Assembly (NCBI GenBank): GCA_944325055.1
Contig: CALUYP010000016.1
Span: 1-48,692, forward strand
Direction of reading: 5' to 3'
DNA: 48,692 nt
From: an uncultured Elusimicrobiales bacterium
Lineage (GTDB): Bacteria > Elusimicrobiota > Elusimicrobia > Elusimicrobiales > Elusimicrobiaceae
The notes beneath the pieces were generated by a model, which had not been told where the DNA came from, made no database searches, and worked only from the letters and a program-made list of their open reading frames with translations. Below are positions 9,804 through 23,750 of the stretch, piece after piece. Position 1 is the first letter of the stretch. Every line of letters begins with the position of its first letter. The position numbers were made by a program, and so were the translations under genes.

Positions 9804-12119
9804 ATGAATGAAAATTCTTCTCTGGTAGGACAAGAAATTTCCGGATGCGAGATATTAAATAAAGTGGCAGAAGGCGGAATGGGCGCCGTATATAAGGCGC
9901 GCCATAAAGCTTTAAACCGTATCGTATGCGTAAAAATTTTAAGCCCGGGTTTGGCTAACGACAAGAAAGCTGTTCAACTCTTTCTTACCGAGGCGAGAGC
10001 TATCGCAGAATTAGACCATCCCAATATCGTCAATGTATACAATGTGGGAAAAGAAAAAGGATATTATTTCATTGTTATGTCCTTTATTGAAGGGAATACG
10101 CTTTCCATACTGCTGAAGAAGAACAAAGTCTTGCCGATAGGAGTTATATTAGATTTATTTGAAGGCGTCCTGCTAGGATTAGAAGCGGCACACGAAAAGG
10201 GAATTATTCACCGCGATATTAAGCCGTCGAATATTTTAATCACTCCGCAAGGACAACCTAAGCTGGTAGATTTCGGTATTGCAAAAAAAGTGGATAAAGA
10301 TAAAGGCTCCACCAAAACCACTGAATTGGCCGGCACCGCTTACTTTATTGCTCCGGAACAAGCTTTAGGAAGAGATTTAGACATCCGGGCAGATCTCTAT
10401 TCTGTAGGAGCCAGTTTATATTATGTACTGACTGGGCAATTTCCCTATAATGGGAAGAATACAATTGACATCATTCAAAAACATATTAATGACCCCGTTC
10501 CCGATCCGGCTAAAATCCGCTCAGATATGCCCGGCTGGCTTTCTTTGGCCGTACAAAAATTAATGAGTAAAAATCCGGATGACCGTTTTAGCACAGCTAA
10601 GGAAACCTATCTCTATTTTAAAAAAATGAGAGCGGAAGACCAATTAAAAGTAAAAATGGGCAAATCGGGCCGGGCTATTGATTTGGGGGAAGAAGGACCG
10701 TTGCGTATTGTCAAAGAGGAAAAACTGAATACAGAAAGCATTAAAAAACAACGGGCTGCCCAAATGCCCATACGCCAAACCACGACATCTTCTTCCCAAT
10801 TGCCTCTTATGCCGCAATTAGACGATTCTGTACCCGATATCAATACAGAACCCCGAAAAAATATTCCTGCAGAAAAGGCAAATATGTTAACGGCAGAGGA
10901 GGTGGTACCTGGAAATCCGTTCGTCCCCTCTAAAAAATTAAAAAATGTTTTACCAGATGTGAATCGTACGGAAATGTTCAAATCGTTGAAAAAGATATGT
11001 ATATTCCTGCCGCTTTTTATCGTTTTTACGATTGGGATTTCCTATCTATTCTGTACACTTGGAAAAATATGTTCAGTGCATGTTGCTGAACATGCTGGCT
11101 TTTTCTCCAACTTAATTATGCCGCTTTTTCCTACGCAATATGCGCCTAACCAACTATCCGTTACCGTTTGTGCATTGATAGGATTAGTGCTTATTTTTGT
11201 TTCTTCTAACTTACAAGCGTTTTCCCGCTCAACTACATTTTTGCTGATTATAGCTCTTGTATCCTATATGGCGGGATTGTTTACTCCCGAAGTGCCTTTT
11301 ATGGACCTTTCACACCTTAGCCAGTTTATCTTTACGCCGGAATACTATCTGTGCTACTTCGTATTGGCGTTAGTGTGGGCCATAGGGTTATGTTGGACAA
11401 TAAACCGCACGACGGCACAAGGCATATTAGGCGCCTCGCTAGGAATATTAAGTATAGTACTGGCTTATCTTTCGGCCCATTTAACAATTGCACCGGATTC
11501 CCAGTCGCTGATTGTAAAAGTGATTTTTTACGCGGCTTTATTCTGCGGAATACTATTTGTTTATTATCTGATAGCCAAAAACGAGAAAGAAAGAATCTTA
11601 TTTCCATTTTTGTTAATATTAATCAGCACGGCAGGTGTCTGGATGTATTCCGTATCAGGTTTAGCTGCTAATATCAACACGACATTGAATACGCTTAAAG
11701 AGCACATTGTCATTAAACTGACTCAGGAAGTGAAATCAAATAAAAAAGTAGAGGAACTGATTGGATTAGAATCGGGACGCAAGGCATTCTCCTCTTTAAA
11801 CCAATCCAATGAAGTAACGGAAATGACAGTGGAAGAAGCGTTCCCTTTCTTAGAGAAAAAAATTGACCAAACGGCGCCAAATGTTTTTGACGAACAGATG
11901 TCTACTTTATTTAGTTATTTTTTGTTGAATTATTACCGCGGGGGCGAACAACGAATGCAATTTGCCGTATGGGATTACGCGATGAGTTTTCCTATTAAAA
12001 ATTTTAACAAAAACGCCCAGAGCAATAATGCTTACTTTTTTCTCTTAGGACTGCTGTATATATTTGGAACGGTTTCTTGTGTGGGAACAATTCTCTTTAG
12101 AGAGCGAGAGGAATTATGA
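9804..12119 (+). CDS. Membrane-anchored Hanks-type serine/threonine protein kinase
   Basis: A 771-residue protein. Residues 12-275 form a complete kinase domain: Gly loop AEGGMGAVY (22-30), Lys44 in VCVKIL, Glu63, HRDIKPSN (136-143), DFG (156-158), and APEQ (183-186). All catalytic residues are present. A basic, disordered juxtamembrane stretch (about 275-390) leads into roughly eight transmembrane helices. A hydrophilic extracytoplasmic segment of about 120 residues lies between the last two. There are no PASTA repeats, so the sensing part differs from PknB. Ribosome-binding site AAGGAAAG precedes the ATG. The PP2C phosphatase overlaps its 3' end by 4 bp, the usual pairing of kinase with its antagonist. 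Confidence 0.93.
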   Translation: MNENSSLVGQEISGCEILNKVAEGGMGAVYKARHKALNRIVCVKILSPGLANDKKAVQLFLTEARAIAELDHPNIVNVYNVGKEKGYYFIVMSFIEGNTLSILLKKNKVLPIGVILDLFEGVLLGLEAAHEKGIIHRDIKPSNILITPQGQPKLVDFGIAKKVDKDKGSTKTTELAGTAYFIAPEQALGRDLDIRADLYSVGASLYYVLTGQFPYNGKNTIDIIQKHINDPVPDPAKIRSDMPGWLSLAVQKLMSKNPDDRFSTAKETYLYFKKMRAEDQLKVKMGKSGRAIDLGEEGPLRIVKEEKLNTESIKKQRAAQMPIRQTTTSSSQLPLMPQLDDSVPDINTEPRKNIPAEKANMLTAEEVVPGNPFVPSKKLKNVLPDVNRTEMFKSLKKICIFLPLFIVFTIGISYLFCTLGKICSVHVAEHAGFFSNLIMPLFPTQYAPNQLSVTVCALIGLVLIFVSSNLQAFSRSTTFLLIIALVSYMAGLFTPEVPFMDLSHLSQFIFTPEYYLCYFVLALVWAIGLCWTINRTTAQGILGASLGILSIVLAYLSAHLTIAPDSQSLIVKVIFYAALFCGILFVYYLIAKNEKERILFPFLLILISTAGVWMYSVSGLAANINTTLNTLKEHIVIKLTQEVKSNKKVEELIGLESGRKAFSSLNQSNEVTEMTVEEAFPFLEKKIDQTAPNVFDEQMSTLFSYFLLNYYRGGEQRMQFAVWDYAMSFPIKNFNKNAQSNNAYFFLLGLLYIFGTVSCVGTILFREREEL

Positions 12120-12940
12120 GCAGCTTTGATATCGAATTTGCCGCTGTAACCGATATTGGCAAAATCCGGGAAAAAAATGAAGACAATGTCCTCATTTCCT
12201 CCGACTTGGGGCTTGGCGTGGTGGCAGATGGAATGGGCGGGCACAGCGCAGGGGAAATTGCCAGTAATATTGCGGTTTCGGTTTTGGCGGAAACCGTACG
12301 GAAAGTCAATAACCAACAGCTCAGAATACCCGATAACTTTCTTCCAAAATTGGATTTTGTAGAACGAAAGCTCTTGATGGCGGCCAATTTGGCAAACGCC
12401 GCCATTTATTCCACCGCCCAATCATCGGATATTTACCGGATGATGGGCACCACCCTTACCGGCGTGCTGTTTGATCAAGACTGCGCCACCGCCGTACACG
12501 TTGGGGATTCGCGCCTATATCTCTTTCGGGATGGAAAGATTATCCAAATCACAACAGATCACTCTCTAGCTATGGAACATGTCCGCCGAGGACTTCTCAC
12601 GCGTGCCGAAGCCGATCGTTCAAAAATTCAAAATGTACTGACTAGAGCCATGGGCATCAAAAAAAACATCGAGTTTGACTTACTGAAATTTCCGGTTAAG
12701 CAAGGAGATATCTTGCTCTTATGTTCGGATGGTCTCTATAAAGGACTATGCGAAAAAGATATGGAAAAACTTCTTAGAGAAGGTACAGAAACCCCTATTG
12801 TTAAATTATGTAAACAACTGGTCCGTGTGTCCAACGAAAATGACGGTCAGGATAACATTTCTGCCGTTTTGATTAAAATTCTTCCTGCCCAAAAACTTTC
12901 TTTTAAGCAACGCTTAAAACGGTTTTTTTCTAAAGCCTAA
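12116..12940 (+). CDS. PP2C-family protein phosphatase
   Basis: A 274-residue soluble protein, close to the usual length for bacterial Stp/PppL phosphatases. Metal-binding and core motifs are all visible: KNEDN near residue 22, VADGMGGHSAGE (about 36-47), GDSRLYL, an HSLAMEHVRRGLLT segment, LLLCSDGL and NDGQDNIS near the C-terminus. It removes phosphate from Ser/Thr on the partner kinase and its substrates, using two Mn/Mg ions. The ATG overlaps the kinase stop codon (ATGA), implying translational coupling. The last codons double as a short AT-rich hairpin followed by seven T. Confidence 0.94.
   Translation: MSSFDIEFAAVTDIGKIREKNEDNVLISSDLGLGVVADGMGGHSAGEIASNIAVSVLAETVRKVNNQQLRIPDNFLPKLDFVERKLLMAANLANAAIYSTAQSSDIYRMMGTTLTGVLFDQDCATAVHVGDSRLYLFRDGKIIQITTDHSLAMEHVRRGLLTRAEADRSKIQNVLTRAMGIKKNIEFDLLKFPVKQGDILLLCSDGLYKGLCEKDMEKLLREGTETPIVKLCKQLVRVSNENDGQDNISAVLIKILPAQKLSFKQRLKRFFSKA
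12901..12929 (+). terminator. Possible terminator embedded in the end of the phosphatase gene
   Basis: TTTTAAGC (12901-12908) pairs with GCTTAAAA (12912-12919) over a 3-nt loop, then seven T (12923-12929). It is AT-rich and within coding sequence, so it may be incidental, but no better terminator precedes the groES promoter on this strand. Confidence 0.35.
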
Positions 12941-13418: not shown

Positions 13419-15053
13419 ATGGCTAAACAAATTATTTACGGCGATGAAGCCCGCGCCAAAATGAAATCGGGCATCGAAAAAGTTGCAAACGCAGTAAAAG
13501 TTACGCTGGGCCCCAAGGGCAGAAGCGTAGTATTGGAAAAGAAATTTGGTTCACCCTTGATCATCGATGACGGCGTGACCATCGCTAAAGACATTGAGCT
13601 GGAAGACAAATTTGAAAATATGGGCGCCCAGCTCATCCGCGAAGTAGCCTCTAAAACCAATGACGTCGCCGGAGACGGTACCACCACCGCCACCGTACTC
13701 GCCAACGCCATGTTGACGGAAGGCATTAAAAATATCACGGCCGGGGCCAACCCGACTTTGGTCAAAAAAGGCATTGAAATGGCCGTAGAAGCCACCAAAA
13801 CCGAGCTGAATAAAATGCATAAGCCGGTCAAGACCAAAGAAGAAAAAGCGCAAATTGCCACCATTTCTTCCAATGACCGCGAAATCGGCAATATGATAGC
13901 CGAAGCCATTGAAAAAGTCGGTGCGGAAGGCGTCATCACGGTAGAAGAAGGCAAAACCGCTACCACCCAATTGGATATTGTAGAAGGTATGCAATTTGAC
14001 CGCGGCTATATTTCGCCTTATTTCGTGACCGATTCCGAAAGAATGGAGTGCGTATTGGAAAATCCGTATATTATCATTACGGATAAGAAAATTTCTTCTA
14101 TGAACGAACTCTTGCCGGTACTGGAAAAAATCGTCCAAAGCGGCAAACAATTCCTCATTATCGCCGAAGACATGGATGGGGAAGCCTTGGCCACGTTAGT
14201 GGTAAACAAACTGCGCGGTACGCTCAAAGGCTGTGCGGTAAAAGCGCCGGGCTTTGGCGACAGACGCAAAGAAATGCTGGAAGACATCGCCATTTTGACG
14301 GGCGGAGAAGTATTAAGCGAAGAGCGCGGTATCAAATTGGATAAAGCCGAACTGGCCATGCTTGGTCAATGCGCCCGCGTAGTGGTGGATAAAGAAAACA
14401 CCACCATCGTCAGCGGAAAAGGCAGCAAAGAAGCCATCGCTGCCCGGGCCGAACAGATCCGCAAACAGATTGAAAACTCCAAGAGCGAATACGACAAAGA
14501 AAAATTGCAAGAACGCTTGGCCAAGCTCTCCGGCGGCGTAGCCGTCATCAGCGTAGGCGCGGCCACGGAAACGGAACTGAAGGCCAAAAAAGCCAAAGTG
14601 GAAGACGCCAAAAACGCCACGAAAGCCGGTGTGGAAGAAGGCTTAGTACCCGGCGGCGGGGTCGCCTTAGCGCGCTGCCAAAAAGCGCTGGAAGCGTTAA
14701 AGACGGATAACGAAGATATCCGCACGGGTATCAACATCGTCCGCAAAGCGCTGACCGCTCCTTTGAAACAGATCGCAGCCAACGCCGGTTTGGACGGAGC
14801 CGTGGTAGTAGACAACGTTCTTAAAATGGCAGGCGCCGCCGACGGTTATGACGCCGAAAAGAACCAATACTGCGACCTTTTGAAAGCAGGCGTAGTAGAT
14901 CCGGCCAAAGTCGTCCGAACTGCCTTAGAAAATGCGGCCTCTATCACGGGAACGGTACTCTTGACCGAAACCTTGGTAGCGGACGCTCCTGAAAAAGAAA
15001 ATGCTCACGCCCCGGCTATGCCCGGCATGGGGGGAATGGGCGGCATGATGTAA
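13419..15053 (+). CDS. groEL: Chaperonin GroEL
   Basis: A 544-residue protein, full length. Conserved ATP-binding segments [11 protein letters not shown] and DGVTIAKDI, the [12 protein letters not shown] motif (with the catalytic Asp), the apical domain and the AAVEEG-like signature [13 protein letters not shown] are present. It ends with the flexible GGMGGMM tail. It forms the 14-mer folding chamber with GroES. Base composition is higher in GC and codon use more biased than neighbours, as expected for a highly expressed gene. Confidence 0.98.
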
Positions 15054-15069
15054 TTTATAAACGCCGCAC

Positions 15070-15101
15070 AAAAAGCCGGTCCATAACAGGGCCGGCTTTT
15101 T
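15070..15101 (+). terminator. Intrinsic terminator of groESL
   Basis: GCCGGTCC pairs with GGGCCGGC (15075-15082 with 15089-15096, one G-T wobble), flanked by five A and five T. Confidence 0.85.
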
Positions 15102-15164
15102 GTTATAGACAACGAAGCTATAAAATGGGTCGATTTGTTTCGGGGGAAAGGTCCTAGAAAATAA

Positions 15165-15261: not shown

Positions 15262-15933
15262 ATGAAAAAAGCATTTGTGTATTTTTTCGTTATTGTATTG
15301 GGTATGATGGGAACTACATTGGTTGTCAATGCGGAAGATTTTTCTAAACAGATTCAAAATCAAGTACAAAAATCAATGCAAAAACGAGAACTTGAAAGAC
15401 TCTTGTCTTTCCCTGAAGACGCCAAAATGTCTGTAAAAGCCATGTGGACTCTTCATAATACAGCCAGACAACCCCTAGGTTCAAATATCGCGATACCAAC
15501 CGAATCCATTTTGAATACTGCATATTGCAGCGCGGTATTATGCAACTACACAGAAAAACAAAATGTGGGGATAGCCAGCATTGCTTTTGGTAAAGAATGT
15601 TTTAGCCAAGTCCAAAAGGAAAAAGCAGATGCGCCTGTTTTTAGATTTCATGTCAATTTAGGTCAATTTGGCTATTATTTCGAAGGAGAAATGGAAGGAG
15701 AACCTTTCTTCTTTGAGACGGAAGTGGACCAAGAAAAAGATATCAAACGCCTCTTTCATTCTGTTACGACCGCCTCAGGGAAGGAACTCTATCTCTTTAA
15801 TATGCCAGTACGGACTGAGTTATTGAAACAAGCTTTTAAAGATTTCTTTGACAAGAATGAGCCTGTTTCGAATGATTTAGCGGCAGCGGTTTTAAAGTAT
15901 ATGCCTCAGCCGCAATATGAAGTAATTTTATAA
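15262..15933 (+). CDS. Exported protein, unknown family; paralogue of the 18284-18907 product
   Basis: A 223-residue protein with a signal peptide (residues 1-24, cleavage after VNA). The mature part begins with an amphipathic helix, then C-S-A at Cys89, a second Cys at 113 in FGKECF, and ends with the motif ELYLFNMPVRTELLKQAF (175-192). The product of 18284-18907 shares this layout, including YVFNMPVTD. The paired Cys and the hydrophobic YLFNMP strand loosely match the first barrel of the trypsin-like pseudoproteases encoded next door, so it may be a one-barrel relative; that is inference. Ribosome-binding site AAGGAG. Preceded by regulatory element copy A and followed by a strong terminator, so monocistronic. 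Confidence 0.8.
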   Translation: MKKAFVYFFVIVLGMMGTTLVVNAEDFSKQIQNQVQKSMQKRELERLLSFPEDAKMSVKAMWTLHNTARQPLGSNIAIPTESILNTAYCSAVLCNYTEKQNVGIASIAFGKECFSQVQKEKADAPVFRFHVNLGQFGYYFEGEMEGEPFFFETEVDQEKDIKRLFHSVTTASGKELYLFNMPVRTELLKQAFKDFFDKNEPVSNDLAAAVLKYMPQPQYEVIL

Positions 15934-15988
15934 GATGACTATTTATTGAGACAATTACTAAAATTCTGAATTTGGCATAAACCTAATT

Positions 15989-16025
15989 AAAGAAAGCCAG
16001 CCTAAATTATTAGCTGGCTTTCTTT
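15989..16025 (+). terminator. Intrinsic terminator
   Basis: A perfect 13-bp stem (15989-16001 with 16013-16025) with an 11-nt AT loop; the 3' arm is T-rich. Confidence 0.8.
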
Positions 16026-16088
16026 AAGAGAAAAATATGAAATAAAAAGTATATAGATTTATAATGAAAGAACGACAATGGAGCATTT

Positions 16089-17060
16089 ATGAAAAATAAA
16101 AAATTCTTATCCACCTTACTCATACTCGGAGGTGTTTTGGTTTCAAGTCAGGCTGCAATTGCTGCGGATTTAAAGCCAGCATTAGAGAGAAAGATTTCCA
16201 ACATAGTGCTAAATCAAAATGCAATTGAAAACAATTTACGGATAGATTTTGAAATTACCGAATCAGTCTACCGAGAAGATTCGCCTCGTAGCGCATCCTA
16301 CTGGGGAAGGGAATCCAGCAACAACACTGAAATGGGGCCTTATAAGGCAAAACTTTCTTGTAAGGCCTATGCCCTAGACTCCCACTGGCTGATTCTTTCC
16401 AGCACCTGCATGCGATATGGAAATGATGAAGTAGTCATCTATGATCAAATTTATCCTTACCGCACGGGACGTACAATTCATTCCTCGTTTAATGTAGCAG
16501 AATTTCCTGTAGAAAATGCCATTCCAGCCCAAAATATGGCCCTAAAAGGAAATTTAATGCTGTTGTGGACCGATAACGAAGAATTAGCCGCTTCTTTAGA
16601 GACCTTGCCTAAAGCCAATGTACTGGCCGTCAGTTCGCCCAATCAATTATTTGCATTAAGTGCGGATAATATTTTTAAGATTAACACCGCCCGATTGGGC
16701 ACTGACGGCGTACGAATTCGCACTTTAAAAAACAACTCCGTAAATGGAAACAAATTTCAGTTAAATGACAAGTGGACTGATTTGTCCGGCACGGCAACAG
16801 ATCCGTTATTTTTGGTTACACGCAACGGAAACGAATTTCTGGTGGGTTATAACGACGGGATGTTATTATATGCGTTACGTTTTCCACGCAATGATAGTAT
16901 TTGGGATTATCAAGGGAAACCTTCTAAAGACTATTTTTCATTAAATTTAGAGGACCTAAACTTTATTAAAGAAACGGTTTTAAAAGAGCGTCCTCAAGAC
17001 TGGGAACGCATCAAAGAGCGATTATTTTATAACAAAATAAAAAGCCCTTATTTCCAATAA
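16089..17060 (+). CDS. Exported chymotrypsin-fold pseudoprotease, copy 1
   Basis: A 323-residue protein with a signal peptide (1-26, AIA-A). The mature chain reads as a trypsin-like protein without its catalytic triad. Cys91 and Cys107 are 16 residues apart, exactly as Cys42-Cys58 of chymotrypsin, but the His before the second Cys is Thr106 (SSTC for AAHC). The DIALL strand is NLMLL (Asp to Asn155). GDSGGPL is GTATDPL with Ala236 at the nucleophile place, followed by FLV and FLVGYNDG like the S1 strand. The helical N-terminal 60 residues are extra. -10 TATAAT lies at 16060-16065 with a GGAG site before the ATG. It shares about half its residues with the next gene. Probably a binding protein; the ligand is unknown. 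Confidence 0.75.
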   Translation: MKNKKFLSTLLILGGVLVSSQAAIAADLKPALERKISNIVLNQNAIENNLRIDFEITESVYREDSPRSASYWGRESSNNTEMGPYKAKLSCKAYALDSHWLILSSTCMRYGNDEVVIYDQIYPYRTGRTIHSSFNVAEFPVENAIPAQNMALKGNLMLLWTDNEELAASLETLPKANVLAVSSPNQLFALSADNIFKINTARLGTDGVRIRTLKNNSVNGNKFQLNDKWTDLSGTATDPLFLVTRNGNEFLVGYNDGMLLYALRFPRNDSIWDYQGKPSKDYFSLNLEDLNFIKETVLKERPQDWERIKERLFYNKIKSPYFQ

Positions 17061-17061
17061 T

Positions 17062-17102
17062 TTAAATACAAAGGCCTGATAAATAAAACGCCTTGTATTT
17101 AA
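17062..17102 (+). terminator. Hairpin after pseudoprotease copy 1
   Basis: TTAAATACAA(A)GGC (17062-17075) pairs with GCCTTGTATTTAA (17090-17102) with one bulged A. There is no T-run after it, so it may slow or stabilise the transcript rather than terminate it. Confidence 0.4.
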
Positions 17103-17187
17103 GTAATAGGAGCAAAGAGATAAAGGAAAAATGTAATCCATAAAGTTGGATTGATGAAATAGGGAAAAAACACAAACAATTTAAGTT

Positions 17188-18156
17188 ATGAAGAAAATAA
17201 TTGCTTTTCTTTTTTTGTCTGCTTTAGGAACGTTAAGTTTGCAAGCATCAGACTTACCTGTAACGTTATCCAAAAAATTAAGTAGGAAAATAGCGTCTGC
17301 CTTGAAAGAACACAGTGCTATTAGAGCCAATCTACGCATTGATTTTCAAATCAGCGAATTTCTATATAAGCCGAATGCGTTTAGCGGATCCAGCCAATTT
17401 AAATTTGATATGTCTGAAATAGGACCTTACAAAGCGGATTTAGCCTGTAAAGCATATGTATTGGACTCCCACTGGCTGATTGTGTCAGGTACTTGTATGC
17501 GACCAAGCAACGAGAAGATTAATTTTTTTGATTTAGTTTATAGCAAGCGAAAAGACAGGCAAATTCTCTCTCCTTTTGAAATATCCGGATTTCCAATACC
17601 AGACGCTATCCCCGCTCAAAATATCGCCTACAACCGAAATATTATGCTATTGTGGACGGATAACAAGCAGCTAGTCTCTTTTTTAAAGAAAATACCAGCA
17701 GTCAATGTATTAGCAGTTCGTTCGGCAAAAAATTTGTTTGCTTTAAGTGCAGCAAGCACTTTTAAGGTAAATACAGCCCGGTTTGGACTAGACGCCATCC
17801 GAGAAAGGACTTTAAAAGCAGACTCTTACGACAATAATTATTTCCAGCTAAACGAAGGGTTGTTAGATCTGTCAGCAACGGCCACGGATCCGTTATTCTT
17901 GGTTTCCAAAACAGGCAAAGAATTCCTCGTTGGTTTTAATAATGGTTTGCTTTCTTATACGTTGCAAATCACCCAAAACGATATATGGGAAACCTTCGAC
18001 GGCAAACCTTCAGCGGACTTTTTCCCTTTAACTTTGGAAGATTTAAATTTCATTAAATCCACCGTTTTGAAAATTCGTCCGCAAGATTGGATTTCCATTC
18101 AACCGCGGTTATTTTATAATCAAACAAAAACGCCATACTTCAACTTGGAACAATAA
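17188..18156 (+). CDS. Exported chymotrypsin-fold pseudoprotease, copy 2
   Basis: A 322-residue paralogue of the preceding gene with a signal peptide (1-20, LQA-S). It carries the same three losses: Thr102 for His (SGTC, Cys87-Cys103 spacing 16), Asn151 for Asp (NIMLL), and Ala232 for Ser (ATATDPLF). Strand motifs LDSHWLIVS, MLLWTDN, NLFALSA and EFLVGFNNG are kept in both copies, so both are under selection to fold but not to cleave. The C-terminal segment LTLEDLNFIKSTVL-x-RPQDW is also shared. No Shine-Dalgarno sequence or strong promoter is obvious, so it may depend on readthrough from copy 1. Function unknown. Confidence 0.75.
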   Translation: MKKIIAFLFLSALGTLSLQASDLPVTLSKKLSRKIASALKEHSAIRANLRIDFQISEFLYKPNAFSGSSQFKFDMSEIGPYKADLACKAYVLDSHWLIVSGTCMRPSNEKINFFDLVYSKRKDRQILSPFEISGFPIPDAIPAQNIAYNRNIMLLWTDNKQLVSFLKKIPAVNVLAVRSAKNLFALSAASTFKVNTARFGLDAIRERTLKADSYDNNYFQLNEGLLDLSATATDPLFLVSKTGKEFLVGFNNGLLSYTLQITQNDIWETFDGKPSADFFPLTLEDLNFIKSTVLKIRPQDWISIQPRLFYNQTKTPYFNLEQ

Positions 18157-18283: not shown

Positions 18284-18907
18284 ATGAAAAAAGTTTTCTT
18301 TAGTATTATGACAGCATTATGCGGTTTGATTATGAATGCTGCTTTTGTGCAAGCCGAGATGACTTTACGAGAAAATATAGAGGATAAAGTACTAGAAACG
18401 GTCCGCGAACAAGAAAACATACCATCAAAAGCTATCGCTATCTTTAAGACCAATCACCTGCTAAATCAAAGGAAATATCACTCTGTATCCGTTGTGTGTA
18501 ATGCCATTTTACGGAATTACAAAGAACAAGATGCTGAAAGTGGAAATGTAGAAATTGTTTTTGATACCCGATGTTTTGATAAAATTGAGGAATATAGCTA
18601 TACAAACAAATTAAAATTTTCTTTAGAATTAGAATCCTTTCAGGAAAAGAATTCCAAAAATCAAGCTGTAACGAGTTTGGAAATAAATGGGAAAATGTTG
18701 GATTGGAAAAAAGCGATCCAACTTCGTAAGATTAAAAACCAAGATGGAATTGTGGTCATGTATGTGTTTAATATGCCCGTTACAGATAAAAGTATGCTAA
18801 CAGCTTTAAAACTGTTTTTCAAGCAAAATGGGCCTATTGCCAACAAGAACATTTTCAAAAAAATATATAATTTGCCTGAACCTTATACCGTATTTAATAT
18901 TGATTGA
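18284..18907 (+). CDS. Exported protein, unknown family; paralogue of the 15262-15933 product
   Basis: A 207-residue protein with a signal peptide (1-24, VQA-E). Shares with the 15262-15933 product the C-x-A box (Cys72), a second Cys 25 residues on (Cys97, DTRCF), the YVFNMPVTDKS motif, and a C-terminal K-x-FFK-x-NGP segment matching DFFDKNEP. Ribosome-binding site GAGGAG. The two paralogues sit on either side of the pseudoprotease pair, and both have a TAGGTC element in place of a -35 box. No enzyme motif seen; probably a periplasmic or surface protein. Confidence 0.8.
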   Translation: MKKVFFSIMTALCGLIMNAAFVQAEMTLRENIEDKVLETVREQENIPSKAIAIFKTNHLLNQRKYHSVSVVCNAILRNYKEQDAESGNVEIVFDTRCFDKIEEYSYTNKLKFSLELESFQEKNSKNQAVTSLEINGKMLDWKKAIQLRKIKNQDGIVVMYVFNMPVTDKSMLTALKLFFKQNGPIANKNIFKKIYNLPEPYTVFNID

Positions 18908-18928: not shown

Positions 18929-18953
18929 AAAACCCCCGCAAACGGGGGTTTTT
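18929..18953 (+). terminator. Intrinsic terminator
   Basis: AAACCCCCG pairs with CGGGGGTTT around a 4-nt loop (18930-18951), with five T. Confidence 0.85.
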
Positions 18954-19045: not shown

Positions 19046-19768
19046 ATGAATAATCCAATGTTAAATGAAACCGCGTTTCAGCGCGCACAAGAACGCGCTG
19101 CATCCAACGGGATAATGACTATGCAAGGTACAATCAATAAGACTTTTTTATTGTTATTTATCTGCGTTATTGGGGGAATGATTACTTGGACTAATTACCA
19201 GAACTGGGCAAATTACACTGGAATAATTGCCATAATAGGTTTTGTGGTAGCGATGATTACGTCTTTTAAACCAACGGCCGCGCCCATTACTGCACCCATT
19301 TATGCCTTTATAGAAGGCTTGTTTCTAGGTGTTATTTCCGCCATGTACAATGCCAAATTTCAGGGAATTGTATTTAATGCCGTAGCCGTTACAATATTGG
19401 TGTTTTTTGTAATGTTGTTTATATATAGAACGGGCATTATCCGCGTGACGCGCGGGCTGGCGGTAGGTATTTTCTCCGCCACGGCGGCAATCGCAATTTT
19501 GTATTTTGGTTCGTTTATATTGTCAGTTTTTGGCGTCAGCACGGCTTATTTAACTTCTAGCTCGCCGTTATCCATTGGGATTAGCGTGGTAGTTTGCGCT
19601 GTTGCGGCGTTCAATTTTCTGCTCGACTTCCACTTTATTGATACAATGACCACACACTATCAAGCGCCTAAACATATGGAATGGTATGCTGGCTTTGGTT
19701 TGCTGGTTACGCTGGTATGGCTATATATTGAAATTTTACAGCTCTTGGCCAAAACACAGCGCAAATAA
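19046..19768 (+). CDS. Bax inhibitor-1-like membrane protein
   Basis: A 240-residue protein with seven predicted membrane helices after a hydrophilic N-terminus (MLNETAFQRAQ). It contains the family features PIYAFIEGLFLG near residue 87 and AFNFLLDFHFID near residue 192, with paired Asp residues as in the pH-sensing calcium channels of this superfamily. It fits the bacterial BaxI_1 subgroup better than YccA. The ribosome-binding site is a G-rich run directly upstream. It is bounded by a terminator upstream and followed about 100 bp later by pgk. Substrate not shown by the sequence. Confidence 0.85.
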   Translation: MNNPMLNETAFQRAQERAASNGIMTMQGTINKTFLLLFICVIGGMITWTNYQNWANYTGIIAIIGFVVAMITSFKPTAAPITAPIYAFIEGLFLGVISAMYNAKFQGIVFNAVAVTILVFFVMLFIYRTGIIRVTRGLAVGIFSATAAIAILYFGSFILSVFGVSTAYLTSSSPLSIGISVVVCAVAAFNFLLDFHFIDTMTTHYQAPKHMEWYAGFGLLVTLVWLYIEILQLLAKTQRK

Positions 19769-21928: not shown

Positions 21929-22810
21929 ATGAATACTCCTCTTATGGCGGCTTGGACATGCTGGGCGATTGTAGGCTTATCACCGATAGCCGGCAAATTT
22001 GCAGCAAGCGTTATCAGTCCCGTAATACTTGTCTTTTTAGGTACGCTTCTTGGCGTTTTATATTTCACTCCTTGGATTAGCAAAAATCATAAATGGGGGG
22101 AAGTATTTGCTTCCGAAACCCGTTGGAAATTTTTATTTATAGGCACTTTTGGGACGGCGCTTCCTTTCACAATTTCTTTAATTGCCCTTCATTATACCAC
22201 ACCGGGAAACGCCGCGATTTTACAACAATCGGAACTGCTTTATTCGCTCCTTTTCGCCGGCATTTTCTTAAGAGAATTTCCCAGCCGCCAACAGCTTTTA
22301 GGAAGCACGCTGATCGTGCTGGGCGTGCTGATTATCTTAGCCAAAGAGCAGTATACCCCGCGTTGGACGGGAGATCTACTGATCGTGGGCAGTACCTGGA
22401 TGCTGCAAGCCGGATCTACCGTAGCCAAAAAACTGCCCAAACACTTAGACTACCGCGTCATTGCCATGGCGCGCAATCTATTTGCCATACCAGCCTTGAT
22501 TCTGCTTCTGGGAATGATGGGGTTGCGTCAAGAGATTTTTATTCTAAAACCGAACTTACAGATGTTTTCGGTTTTAGCTTATACGGGATTTTTTAAATAT
22601 GGGCTGGCAATGGTCGTCTGGTATAAGGCCATCCGGTCATTAGATTTAAGCAAAGCAACCGCTATTTATCTATCCTATCCGGTATTATCGCTTATATTAT
22701 CGGCCGCATTAGGGTTGGAAAAGATCAGCTTGTATCAAGCGGGGGGGCTGTTAGTTAGTCTGACAGGAGCTTATTGGATAAGTCTGACGGTCCAAAAAGA
22801 AGGACATTAG
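21929..22810 (+). CDS. DMT-superfamily (EamA) transporter, copy 1
   Basis: A 293-residue protein with about ten membrane helices in two EamA repeats of five. Typical features: FGTALPFTISLIALHYTT and NAAILQQSELLYSLLFA in the first repeat, DLSKATAIYLSYPVLSL in the second. Such proteins are exporters of amino acids, metabolites or nucleotide sugars; the substrate cannot be read here. Ribosome-binding site GGAG. A closely related transporter gene follows 49 bp later. The pair could be redundant or form a heterodimer. Confidence 0.88.
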   Translation: MNTPLMAAWTCWAIVGLSPIAGKFAASVISPVILVFLGTLLGVLYFTPWISKNHKWGEVFASETRWKFLFIGTFGTALPFTISLIALHYTTPGNAAILQQSELLYSLLFAGIFLREFPSRQQLLGSTLIVLGVLIILAKEQYTPRWTGDLLIVGSTWMLQAGSTVAKKLPKHLDYRVIAMARNLFAIPALILLLGMMGLRQEIFILKPNLQMFSVLAYTGFFKYGLAMVVWYKAIRSLDLSKATAIYLSYPVLSLILSAALGLEKISLYQAGGLLVSLTGAYWISLTVQKEGH

Positions 22811-22859
22811 CCTTTTATCCATTCCCGGAATTAGGTACAATATTAAGAAAGGAGAATTT

Positions 22860-23750
22860 ATGTTTAATATCAGCCCTGTATTTGCAATCTGGATTGCTTG
22901 GTTTGCTACAGCCGCGAACCTCGTCATCAGCAAAGCCGCCGTGCCGTATGTCACCTCGGCCTTATTTATTTTATTGGCATGCGTGGTGGCTTCTTTGTGT
23001 TTTTTGCCGTATATTTTGAGGACAGACGGCTGGAAAATATTATTCGATAAAAAGGTTTGGCCGCAATGTTTAGCCATGGGTACTTTTGGTACGGCATTGC
23101 CTATGACGATTTTTATGATTGCGTTAAATTACACGACCCCCGTAAACGGCGCCATTTTAAACCAATTTGAAATTATTTATTCCATTATTCTATCTGCAAT
23201 TATTCTTAAGGAACGCCCTACTTTACGACAAATAGGCGGTTCATTGCTGATCTTATTTGGAGTGGGACTGCTTCTTTGGCAAGCGGGTACTACGGTTCAA
23301 CTCAAAGGCGATTTATTGATTATCGGCTGCCTATGGATGTTTCAAGTAAGTCATATTTTTGCAAAAAAACTGCCTGCCCAAATGCCGCCGCAGCTTATTT
23401 CTGCAGCGCGCGCAATTTTTGCCATACCGGCGCTGCTCATTTTAGTGGCATACTTAGCGATATTTCAAGGCCCGCTGCAATTTGAAAGCAATCTGACCTT
23501 ATGGAGTATGCTTATCTTGTGTGCCGTGGTAAATTATTTTTTGGGGAATACGTATTGGTACCAAGCAATACGCCATATGGATTTAAGCAAAGCTACGGCT
23601 ATTATTTTATCCTATCCGGTAATGACCTTTATTCTCTCCGTTCTGCTGGGGCAGGATAAAATCACGTTATACAAGGTTTTTGGGATGATTTTAGCTATCG
23701 GCGGAGCATATATCGTAACCGGCATGTTGAAACAGGGAGAACAGAAATGA
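22860..23750 (+). CDS. DMT-superfamily (EamA) transporter, copy 2
   Basis: A 296-residue paralogue of the preceding gene. Shares FGTALPMTIFMIALNYTTP-x-NGAIL, the ERPTLRQIGGSLLI segment and MDLSKATAIILSYPV. Ten helices in two repeats. A -10-like TACAAT and AAGGAG site lie just upstream, so it may have its own promoter. The HAD phosphatase gene overlaps its stop codon by 4 bp. Confidence 0.88.
   Translation: MFNISPVFAIWIAWFATAANLVISKAAVPYVTSALFILLACVVASLCFLPYILRTDGWKILFDKKVWPQCLAMGTFGTALPMTIFMIALNYTTPVNGAILNQFEIIYSIILSAIILKERPTLRQIGGSLLILFGVGLLLWQAGTTVQLKGDLLIIGCLWMFQVSHIFAKKLPAQMPPQLISAARAIFAIPALLILVAYLAIFQGPLQFESNLTLWSMLILCAVVNYFLGNTYWYQAIRHMDLSKATAIILSYPVMTFILSVLLGQDKITLYKVFGMILAIGGAYIVTGMLKQGEQK

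Follow-up and report, generated by a model that had tools for sequence, protein, structure and literature searches.

The window, i.e., the whole stretch of 48,692 nucleotides analysed here (contig CALUYP010000016.1 of an uncultured Elusimicrobiales bacterium), carries a slot between groEL and a BaxI-like gene in which two tandem genes encode proteins resembling chymotrypsin-type serine proteases without a catalytic triad (Table 1). The pair is flanked by genes for small exported proteins of ca. 220 residues, a type that we call c9 and that also occurs in the slots of other genomes. A preliminary description of this DNA had presented the pair as exported proteins that keep a Cys pair spaced 16 residues apart and have lost all three catalytic residues. 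Both open reading frames are indeed real, and each product begins with a Sec-type signal peptide (recognized by eye) followed by a short helix and the barrel region. The Cys pair is likewise present at this spacing in each copy (C91/C107 and C87/C103), and Thr, Asn and Ala occupy the His57, Asp102 and Ser195 sites of both, a placement that is now backed by homology and not by eye alone. Aligned over 318 columns, the two copies share 164 identical residues (52%).

Table 1. Features of the groEL-BaxI slot in the window (z, hairpin score; residue numbers of the classical protease in the last column).
Feature	Position	Strand	Remarks
groEL	13419..15053	+	left edge of the slot
Terminator hairpin after groEL	15068..15104 (approximate ends)	+	strong; z -4.1
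Exported slot protein, c9 type	15262..15933	+	223 aa
Hairpin between the 15262 ORF and pseudoprotease 1	15987..16029	+	z -5.9
Pseudoprotease 1	16089..17060	+	323 aa; ATG start; clade A; GTATDP motif
Copy 1 Cys91	16359..16361	+	Cys42 position
Copy 1 Thr106	16404..16406	+	His57 position; precedes the second Cys
Copy 1 Cys107	16407..16409	+	Cys58 position
Copy 1 Asn155	16551..16553	+	Asp102 position; precedes LMLL
Copy 1 Ala236	16794..16796	+	Ser195 position; GTATDPLF (clade B: GDSGDPVF)
Hairpin between the two pseudoprotease genes	17060..17105 (approximate ends)	+	z -4.8
Pseudoprotease 2	17188..18156	+	322 aa; ATG start; clade A; sister of copy 1
Copy 2 Cys87	17446..17448	+	Cys42 position
Copy 2 Thr102	17491..17493	+	His57 position
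Copy 2 Asn151	17638..17640	+	Asp102 position
Copy 2 Ala232	17881..17883	+	Ser195 position; ATATDPLF
Exported slot protein, c9 type	18284..18907	+	207 aa
Terminator after the 18284 ORF	18929..18952	+	strong; closes the slot; z -4.9
BaxI-like gene (PF12811)	19046..19768	+	right edge of the slot

Since a hairpin follows groEL and others separate the slot genes, transcription of the slot by read-through from groEL appears unlikely as judged from the DNA sequence. Promoter predictions were indistinguishable from chance (14 found, 14.9 expected). Just upstream of groES/groEL, a Ser/Thr kinase gene is followed by one for a PP2C-type phosphatase (window positions 9804-12940), an order kept in many genomes, and two tandem transporter-like genes downstream of PGK/SecG (21929-23750), which we take to be of the EamA type, are also kept in relatives.

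The chymotrypsin-type fold proposed in the preliminary description, for which structure prediction followed by a fold search had been suggested as a check, is concordantly indicated by a profile search of PDB sequences, a predicted structure and profile-profile comparisons with controls. An AlphaFold2 model computed without templates (pLDDT 87.8, pTM 0.83) is a double beta-barrel that matches trypsin-fold structures. VIA-align placed MASP-3 first (Z 12.8, 193 residues aligned, 3.4 Å) and assigned Z ≥8 to 915 of the 1000 chains, with all of the best 50 rows being trypsin-fold chains or complexes containing one; a chain of the Umb1 particle (8w20_C) scored Z 12.1 over 174 aligned residues (3.1 Å). 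Foldseek gave 82 matches in the PDB at E ≤0.001, the best 50 of which were all S1-fold proteins, and among the matches listed are 3h7o, the dead SMIPP-S-I1, and 8w20, the Umb1 particle. Because the TM-scores are modest (query-normalised 0.28-0.39 among the matches listed), this seems to be a distant version of the fold, unlike known structures in its loops and in how the barrels pack.

Sequence profiles lead to the same protein family. A profile of 44 relatives matched protein C at E 9.8e-5, with the columns of T106 and N155 aligned to its His57 and Asp102, and the best 60 of 240 matches among PDB sequences were all S1A proteases or complexes that include one. When the mature pseudoproteases were compared profile to profile with intact S1 paralogues of the same genus, the probability was 94.8% (E 5e-8), and the N-terminal barrel alone reached 96.9% (E 1.9e-10), against values of at most 0.4% for seven unrelated families serving as negative controls. 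The C-terminal barrel alone gave no significant match to the intact paralogues (5.9%, E 0.0064); within this non-significant comparison, GTATDPLF aligns to their GNSGGGVF. No Pfam or NCBIfam family reached its cut-off for either pseudoprotease of the window. The nearest approach was DUF1986 (PF09342) on the His57 strand region of copy 2 (E 0.0035; 18.2 bits compared with a curated cut-off of 25.2), and the Trypsin family PF00089 weakly matched the same region in 2 of 44 family members (best E 0.079). A PF00089 scan of the organism's own genome listed eight places at E up to 1, none of them in the window. The search for a viral origin produced three pattern matches and no relative in IMG/VR.

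At E 0.001, the profile of the family has matches in 62 of the genus' 66 genomes, though many of the weak rows are intact proteases. From 51 family matches, 7 partial or doubtful ones were left out to give the alignment of 44 relatives; a larger set, defined by E <1e-20 and a length of at least 250 residues, held 62 proteins, or 61 full-length members from 45 Elusimicrobiota genomes once one contained in another was removed. Both Cys residues are kept in every protein of either set (44/44 and 61/61). By comparison, the triad has almost vanished: across the 61 members its His is found once, its Asp twice and its Ser nine times, such that 49 members have none of the three, 12 have exactly one and none has more. 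The only His at the His57 site (SAHC) belongs to a member from genome G007 (L109, 7419-8276), which has Ser at the Asp site and Phe at the Ser195 site. We are highly confident that these proteins are S1-fold pseudoproteases, unable to work as serine proteases, and that they form a family specific to this lineage with an S1 protease as its ancestor.

A phylogenetic tree splits the family in two (support 95/93), with 32 rows in clade A and 29 in clade B. The Ser-loop motif is mostly GTATDP in clade A, while clade B displays GDSGDP, GDTGDP, GDFGDP and similar motifs, the first of which deviates from the classic GDSGGP solely by an Asp at position 197. This Asp is shared by 55 of the 61 members, clade A included, and clade A thus appears to have lost its Ser on a loop that was already altered. 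The two genes of the window are sisters inside clade A that arose by a lineage-specific duplication (support 96/83). The identical replacement of the triad in both, which had been pointed out in the preliminary description, is for this reason, judging by the tree, a matter of inheritance and not of two independent replacements.

Conservation within clade A is highest in the former active-site loops (residues 85-108 around the His site and 229-240 around the Ser site) and in a C-terminal helix region (289-312). Ser279 (94%), Asp289 (100%) and Asp238 (91%) also stand out, and one could imagine that these residues serve an enzyme of unrecognised chemistry. We consider this very unlikely, because no His is conserved to at least 60% in clade A, the conserved Asp and Ser residues lie outside the classical sites, and position 279 is Gly in 90% of clade B, where the Ser is not kept. 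The same survey of His residues led us to reject an alternative triad, the presence of which had been named beforehand as an argument against pseudoproteases.

Beyond the genus, we searched 340 genomes of the phylum and found clear members only in one other genus, which belongs to the same taxonomic family. This search was shallow, with six candidates scored per genome, and absence outside the taxonomic family is therefore provisional. Sister-genus members from G143 (L168, 6893-7876) and G141 (L169, 7177-8172) are encoded at a locus other than the groEL slot. Both have Tyr for His57 and keep the Asp and the Ser (MSGDPLF), a state that would correspond to an early step of inactivation. A further member, from G140, lies directly 3' of groEL and has Lys in place of the His. 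Two proteins of G134 scored more weakly, and one of them keeps THKHC and TDLVL with YPGEP at the Ser loop, where the automatic column assignment is unsure. Weak rows from G122, G127 and G142 were rejected as family members since they are intact proteases. Given the sister-genus intermediates and the position of the G140 gene after groEL, it looks as if inactivation proceeded stepwise and as if the slot predates the genus, as far as sequence comparison can tell.

A plausible source of the family is encoded in the same genomes. One of the PF00089 places in the organism's own genome, an intact S1 protease beside hflX and plsY (L063, 1282-2319, on contig 28 of G000), carries its triad in AAHC, GMDAAL and GNSGG, and 65 of the genus' 66 genomes yielded matches when searched with it. 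The best 30 of these all have SAHC or AAHC, 29 of 30 fit GxSGG/S by pattern and 13 of 30 a narrow Asp pattern. Proteases of this type are apparently the ancestor type of the dead family or its cousins. Like the pseudoproteases, they are exported and share the strand-turn CxAxxLxxxWxxxxxxC in addition to the profile-profile homology; unlike them, they keep SAHC/AAHC, remain at the conserved hflX-plsY locus and vary little.

The near-universal presence of active paralogues raises the question whether the pseudoproteases could be partners or regulators of the active S1 protease that the genus itself encodes, for which MamO, reported to promote MamE-dependent proteolysis, would be a precedent (PMC4794232). 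Tighter co-evolution than is seen here would be expected if the partner were fixed: the active gene is conserved at its own locus, while the set of pseudoproteases varies from none to three, and the slots of G008 and G022 are empty (ca. 110 bp from groEL to BaxI) even though G022 encodes an active protease (E 4e-34). A regulatory role of this kind thus seems improbable.

Most members of the family reside in the groEL-BaxI slot, which we surveyed in the 45 of 65 stretches that contained both anchors. Its order is groEL, then zero to six mostly signal-peptide-bearing ORFs, then BaxI and usually PGK. At least one full-length pseudoprotease is present in 34 of the 45 intervals (one in 27, two in five and three in two), counts that come from a gene caller that retained the longest ORF, with a second gene of G042 masked by an antisense ORF and the slot of G044 rearranged. 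Type IV pilin-like ORFs are found in or beside the slot in L076, L082, L085 and L126. In G055 and G018 (L083 and L136), a pair of one clade A and one clade B gene has been relocated from the slot to another conserved neighbourhood. An order rule placing the clade A gene first and the clade B gene last was dropped because it is broken by G010 and by G055/G018.

Small exported proteins of the c9 type occur in 16 of the 45 intervals. Iterated HMMER searches connect them to the pseudoproteases (E 1e-6 to 1e-8), but profile-profile comparison without the signal peptide region gave a probability of 0.5%, and the mature sequence thus lends no support to kinship. The c9 model (pLDDT 85.8) consists of a single barrel-like sheet that weakly resembles one of the two barrels of HtrA/DegS, and it has no Foldseek match at E ≤0.001. 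In VIA-align, ten trypsin-fold chains scored Z 6.3-5.3, followed by MamO at Z 4.5, with alignments of 96-109 residues that mostly cover one barrel, all of which falls within the stated noise range of the tool.

The small exported neighbours, together with the Umb1 chain among the structural matches, might suggest that the pseudoproteases assemble with other proteins into a toxin particle like that of the Umb proteins or into a different secreted complex. However, they have no lectin domain, as the barrel pair fills residues 42-310 of 323, and the c9 genes are not linked to them (c9 without pseudoprotease in 9/45 intervals, the reverse in 27/45). Neither is there a large toxin gene in the slot, and PADLOC, run on five proteins for anti-phage systems, reported no match. 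Such a complex therefore strikes us as quite unlikely.

The pseudoproteases diverge much faster than the products of the anchor genes. Across 496 genome pairs, the median best identity is 0.24 for the pseudoprotease, 0.59 for BaxI and 0.92 for groEL, and pseudoprotease identity is below that of BaxI in 495 of them. For dN/dS between the copies and among homologues, which had also been recommended as a check, only the second half is informative: the window copies are saturated (dS 2.3) and say nothing about selection, whereas among the 22 closest pseudoprotease pairs of the family the 19 with finite dS have an omega of 0.07-0.35 (dS is infinite in the other three). In the same comparison, omega is 0.05-0.19 for BaxI (with one pair without any BaxI change) and 0.013-0.055 for groEL. 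The pair of G046 and G015 goes against the trend, with a pseudoprotease dN of 0.18 below the BaxI dN of 0.205. These values mean that the pseudoproteases are constrained, but loosely, and the view that the copies are maintained holds up in that they evolve under purifying selection.

This bears on two further explanations. Stepwise loss of the triad along the family would also be expected of decaying relics of a lost protease, but the genes are open and full-length in 34 of 45 intervals, the Cys residues are invariant, omega is low and duplication has occurred repeatedly, so that we give decay hardly any credence. Alternatively, the dead proteases could be decoys that absorb protease inhibitors of a host or rival and thereby spare the active S1 proteases of the organism. 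Their fold resembles the targets of such inhibitors, active exported paralogues to be spared are encoded by the 65 genomes mentioned above, and fast divergence is reminiscent of an arms race. Canonical-type inhibitors bind the specificity loops and the oxyanion region. In the pseudoproteases, the catalytic loop has been rewritten (GTATDP) and is constant within clade A, and no omega above 1, as a sign of positive selection, appeared in whole-gene comparisons; we thus regard decoys as rather improbable.

Homology, the predicted fold, loss of the triad, the conserved slot and fast divergence under purifying selection are results of computation, and we lean slightly towards a reading that accommodates them as a whole, i.e., S1-fold pseudoproteases that reuse their cleft to bind a varying partner. 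The protein would fold extracellularly or in the periplasm, held together by one disulfide. Its former substrate cleft and surface would then bind a partner, either a protein or a peptide, without cutting it, by analogy to UmbA and the UmbB N-terminal strand that it holds. That the repertoire changes while the locus stays fixed would reflect variation in what is bound, be it surface proteins of the host, of a rival or of the organism itself. The argument for binding by the cleft is that the former His and Ser loops and the C-terminal region are the best conserved parts of clade A, as expected of a binding cleft that has been kept, though these loops may be structural core instead; for this part of the explanation we see even chances. 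Variation between species in turn suggests that the ligand varies too. More tentatively, the slot could be a diversification locus at which one bacterial lineage uses the chymotrypsin fold as an exported scaffold for variable binding, where species differ by gain, loss and rewriting of copies under the constraint of the fold and with c9 proteins perhaps as single-barrel reductions.

Several aspects make the family worth following. Its phylogeny dates a series of triad loss during which the fold stays under selection, from the sister genus through the GDSGDP relics of clade B to GTATDP in clade A. Because dozens of natural variants occupy the same locus, the question of what a dead protease binds becomes testable by comparison. 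The proteins also constitute an exported group of gut-type Elusimicrobiota that annotation pipelines have left without a family, and in their candidate role they would be a further bacterial case of a protease cleft reused without catalysis. In the open-access literature that we searched, we found no description of the family, its clades, the relic motifs or the hypervariable slot. The family and its slot thus appear to be undescribed there, while dead bacterial S1 proteases are already known as a kind. The earlier statement that no bacterial family of this kind had been described was too strong, because MamO (PMC4794232) and UmbA (PMC11062931) are dead bacterial S1-fold proteins.

The umbrella toxins of Streptomyces contain UmbA, whose trypsin domain lacks a complete triad and holds the N-terminal strand of UmbB uncut (PMC11062931). 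UmbA resembles the pseudoproteases in being bacterial and secreted, in its trypsin fold with an incomplete triad and in the several divergent paralogues per genome. It differs by its C-terminal lectin domains and its assembly into an UmbA/B/C particle, whereas the window proteins have no room for a propeller with a fold spanning about residues 40-310 of 323. UmbA also comes from another phylum, and the likeness consists of the fold and the state of the triad. MamO of magnetotactic bacteria is a trypsin-like pseudoprotease that arose from an active paralogue, in a loss that happened repeatedly (PMC4794232). It shares with the pseudoproteases a bacterial origin and a degenerate trypsin-like active site; however, it is of the HtrA type, has two of the triad residues left, with the Ser replaced by Thr, and binds metal via two His (PMC4794232). 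With no conserved His, clade A does not have such a di-histidine metal site, and it does have the Cys42-Cys58 pair. The SMIPPs of the scabies mite, finally, are a multi-copy secreted family of dead S1 proteases and a precedent for decoy or binding roles (PMC5427104). Compared at the level of the S1 fold, they are like the pseudoproteases in copy number, dead triad and secretion (here by signal peptide only), and they differ in belonging to an animal parasite. If the tentative reading as a diversification locus is true, the groEL-BaxI slot would represent in bacteria what the SMIPPs are in the mite, facing a varying ligand of a host or rival.
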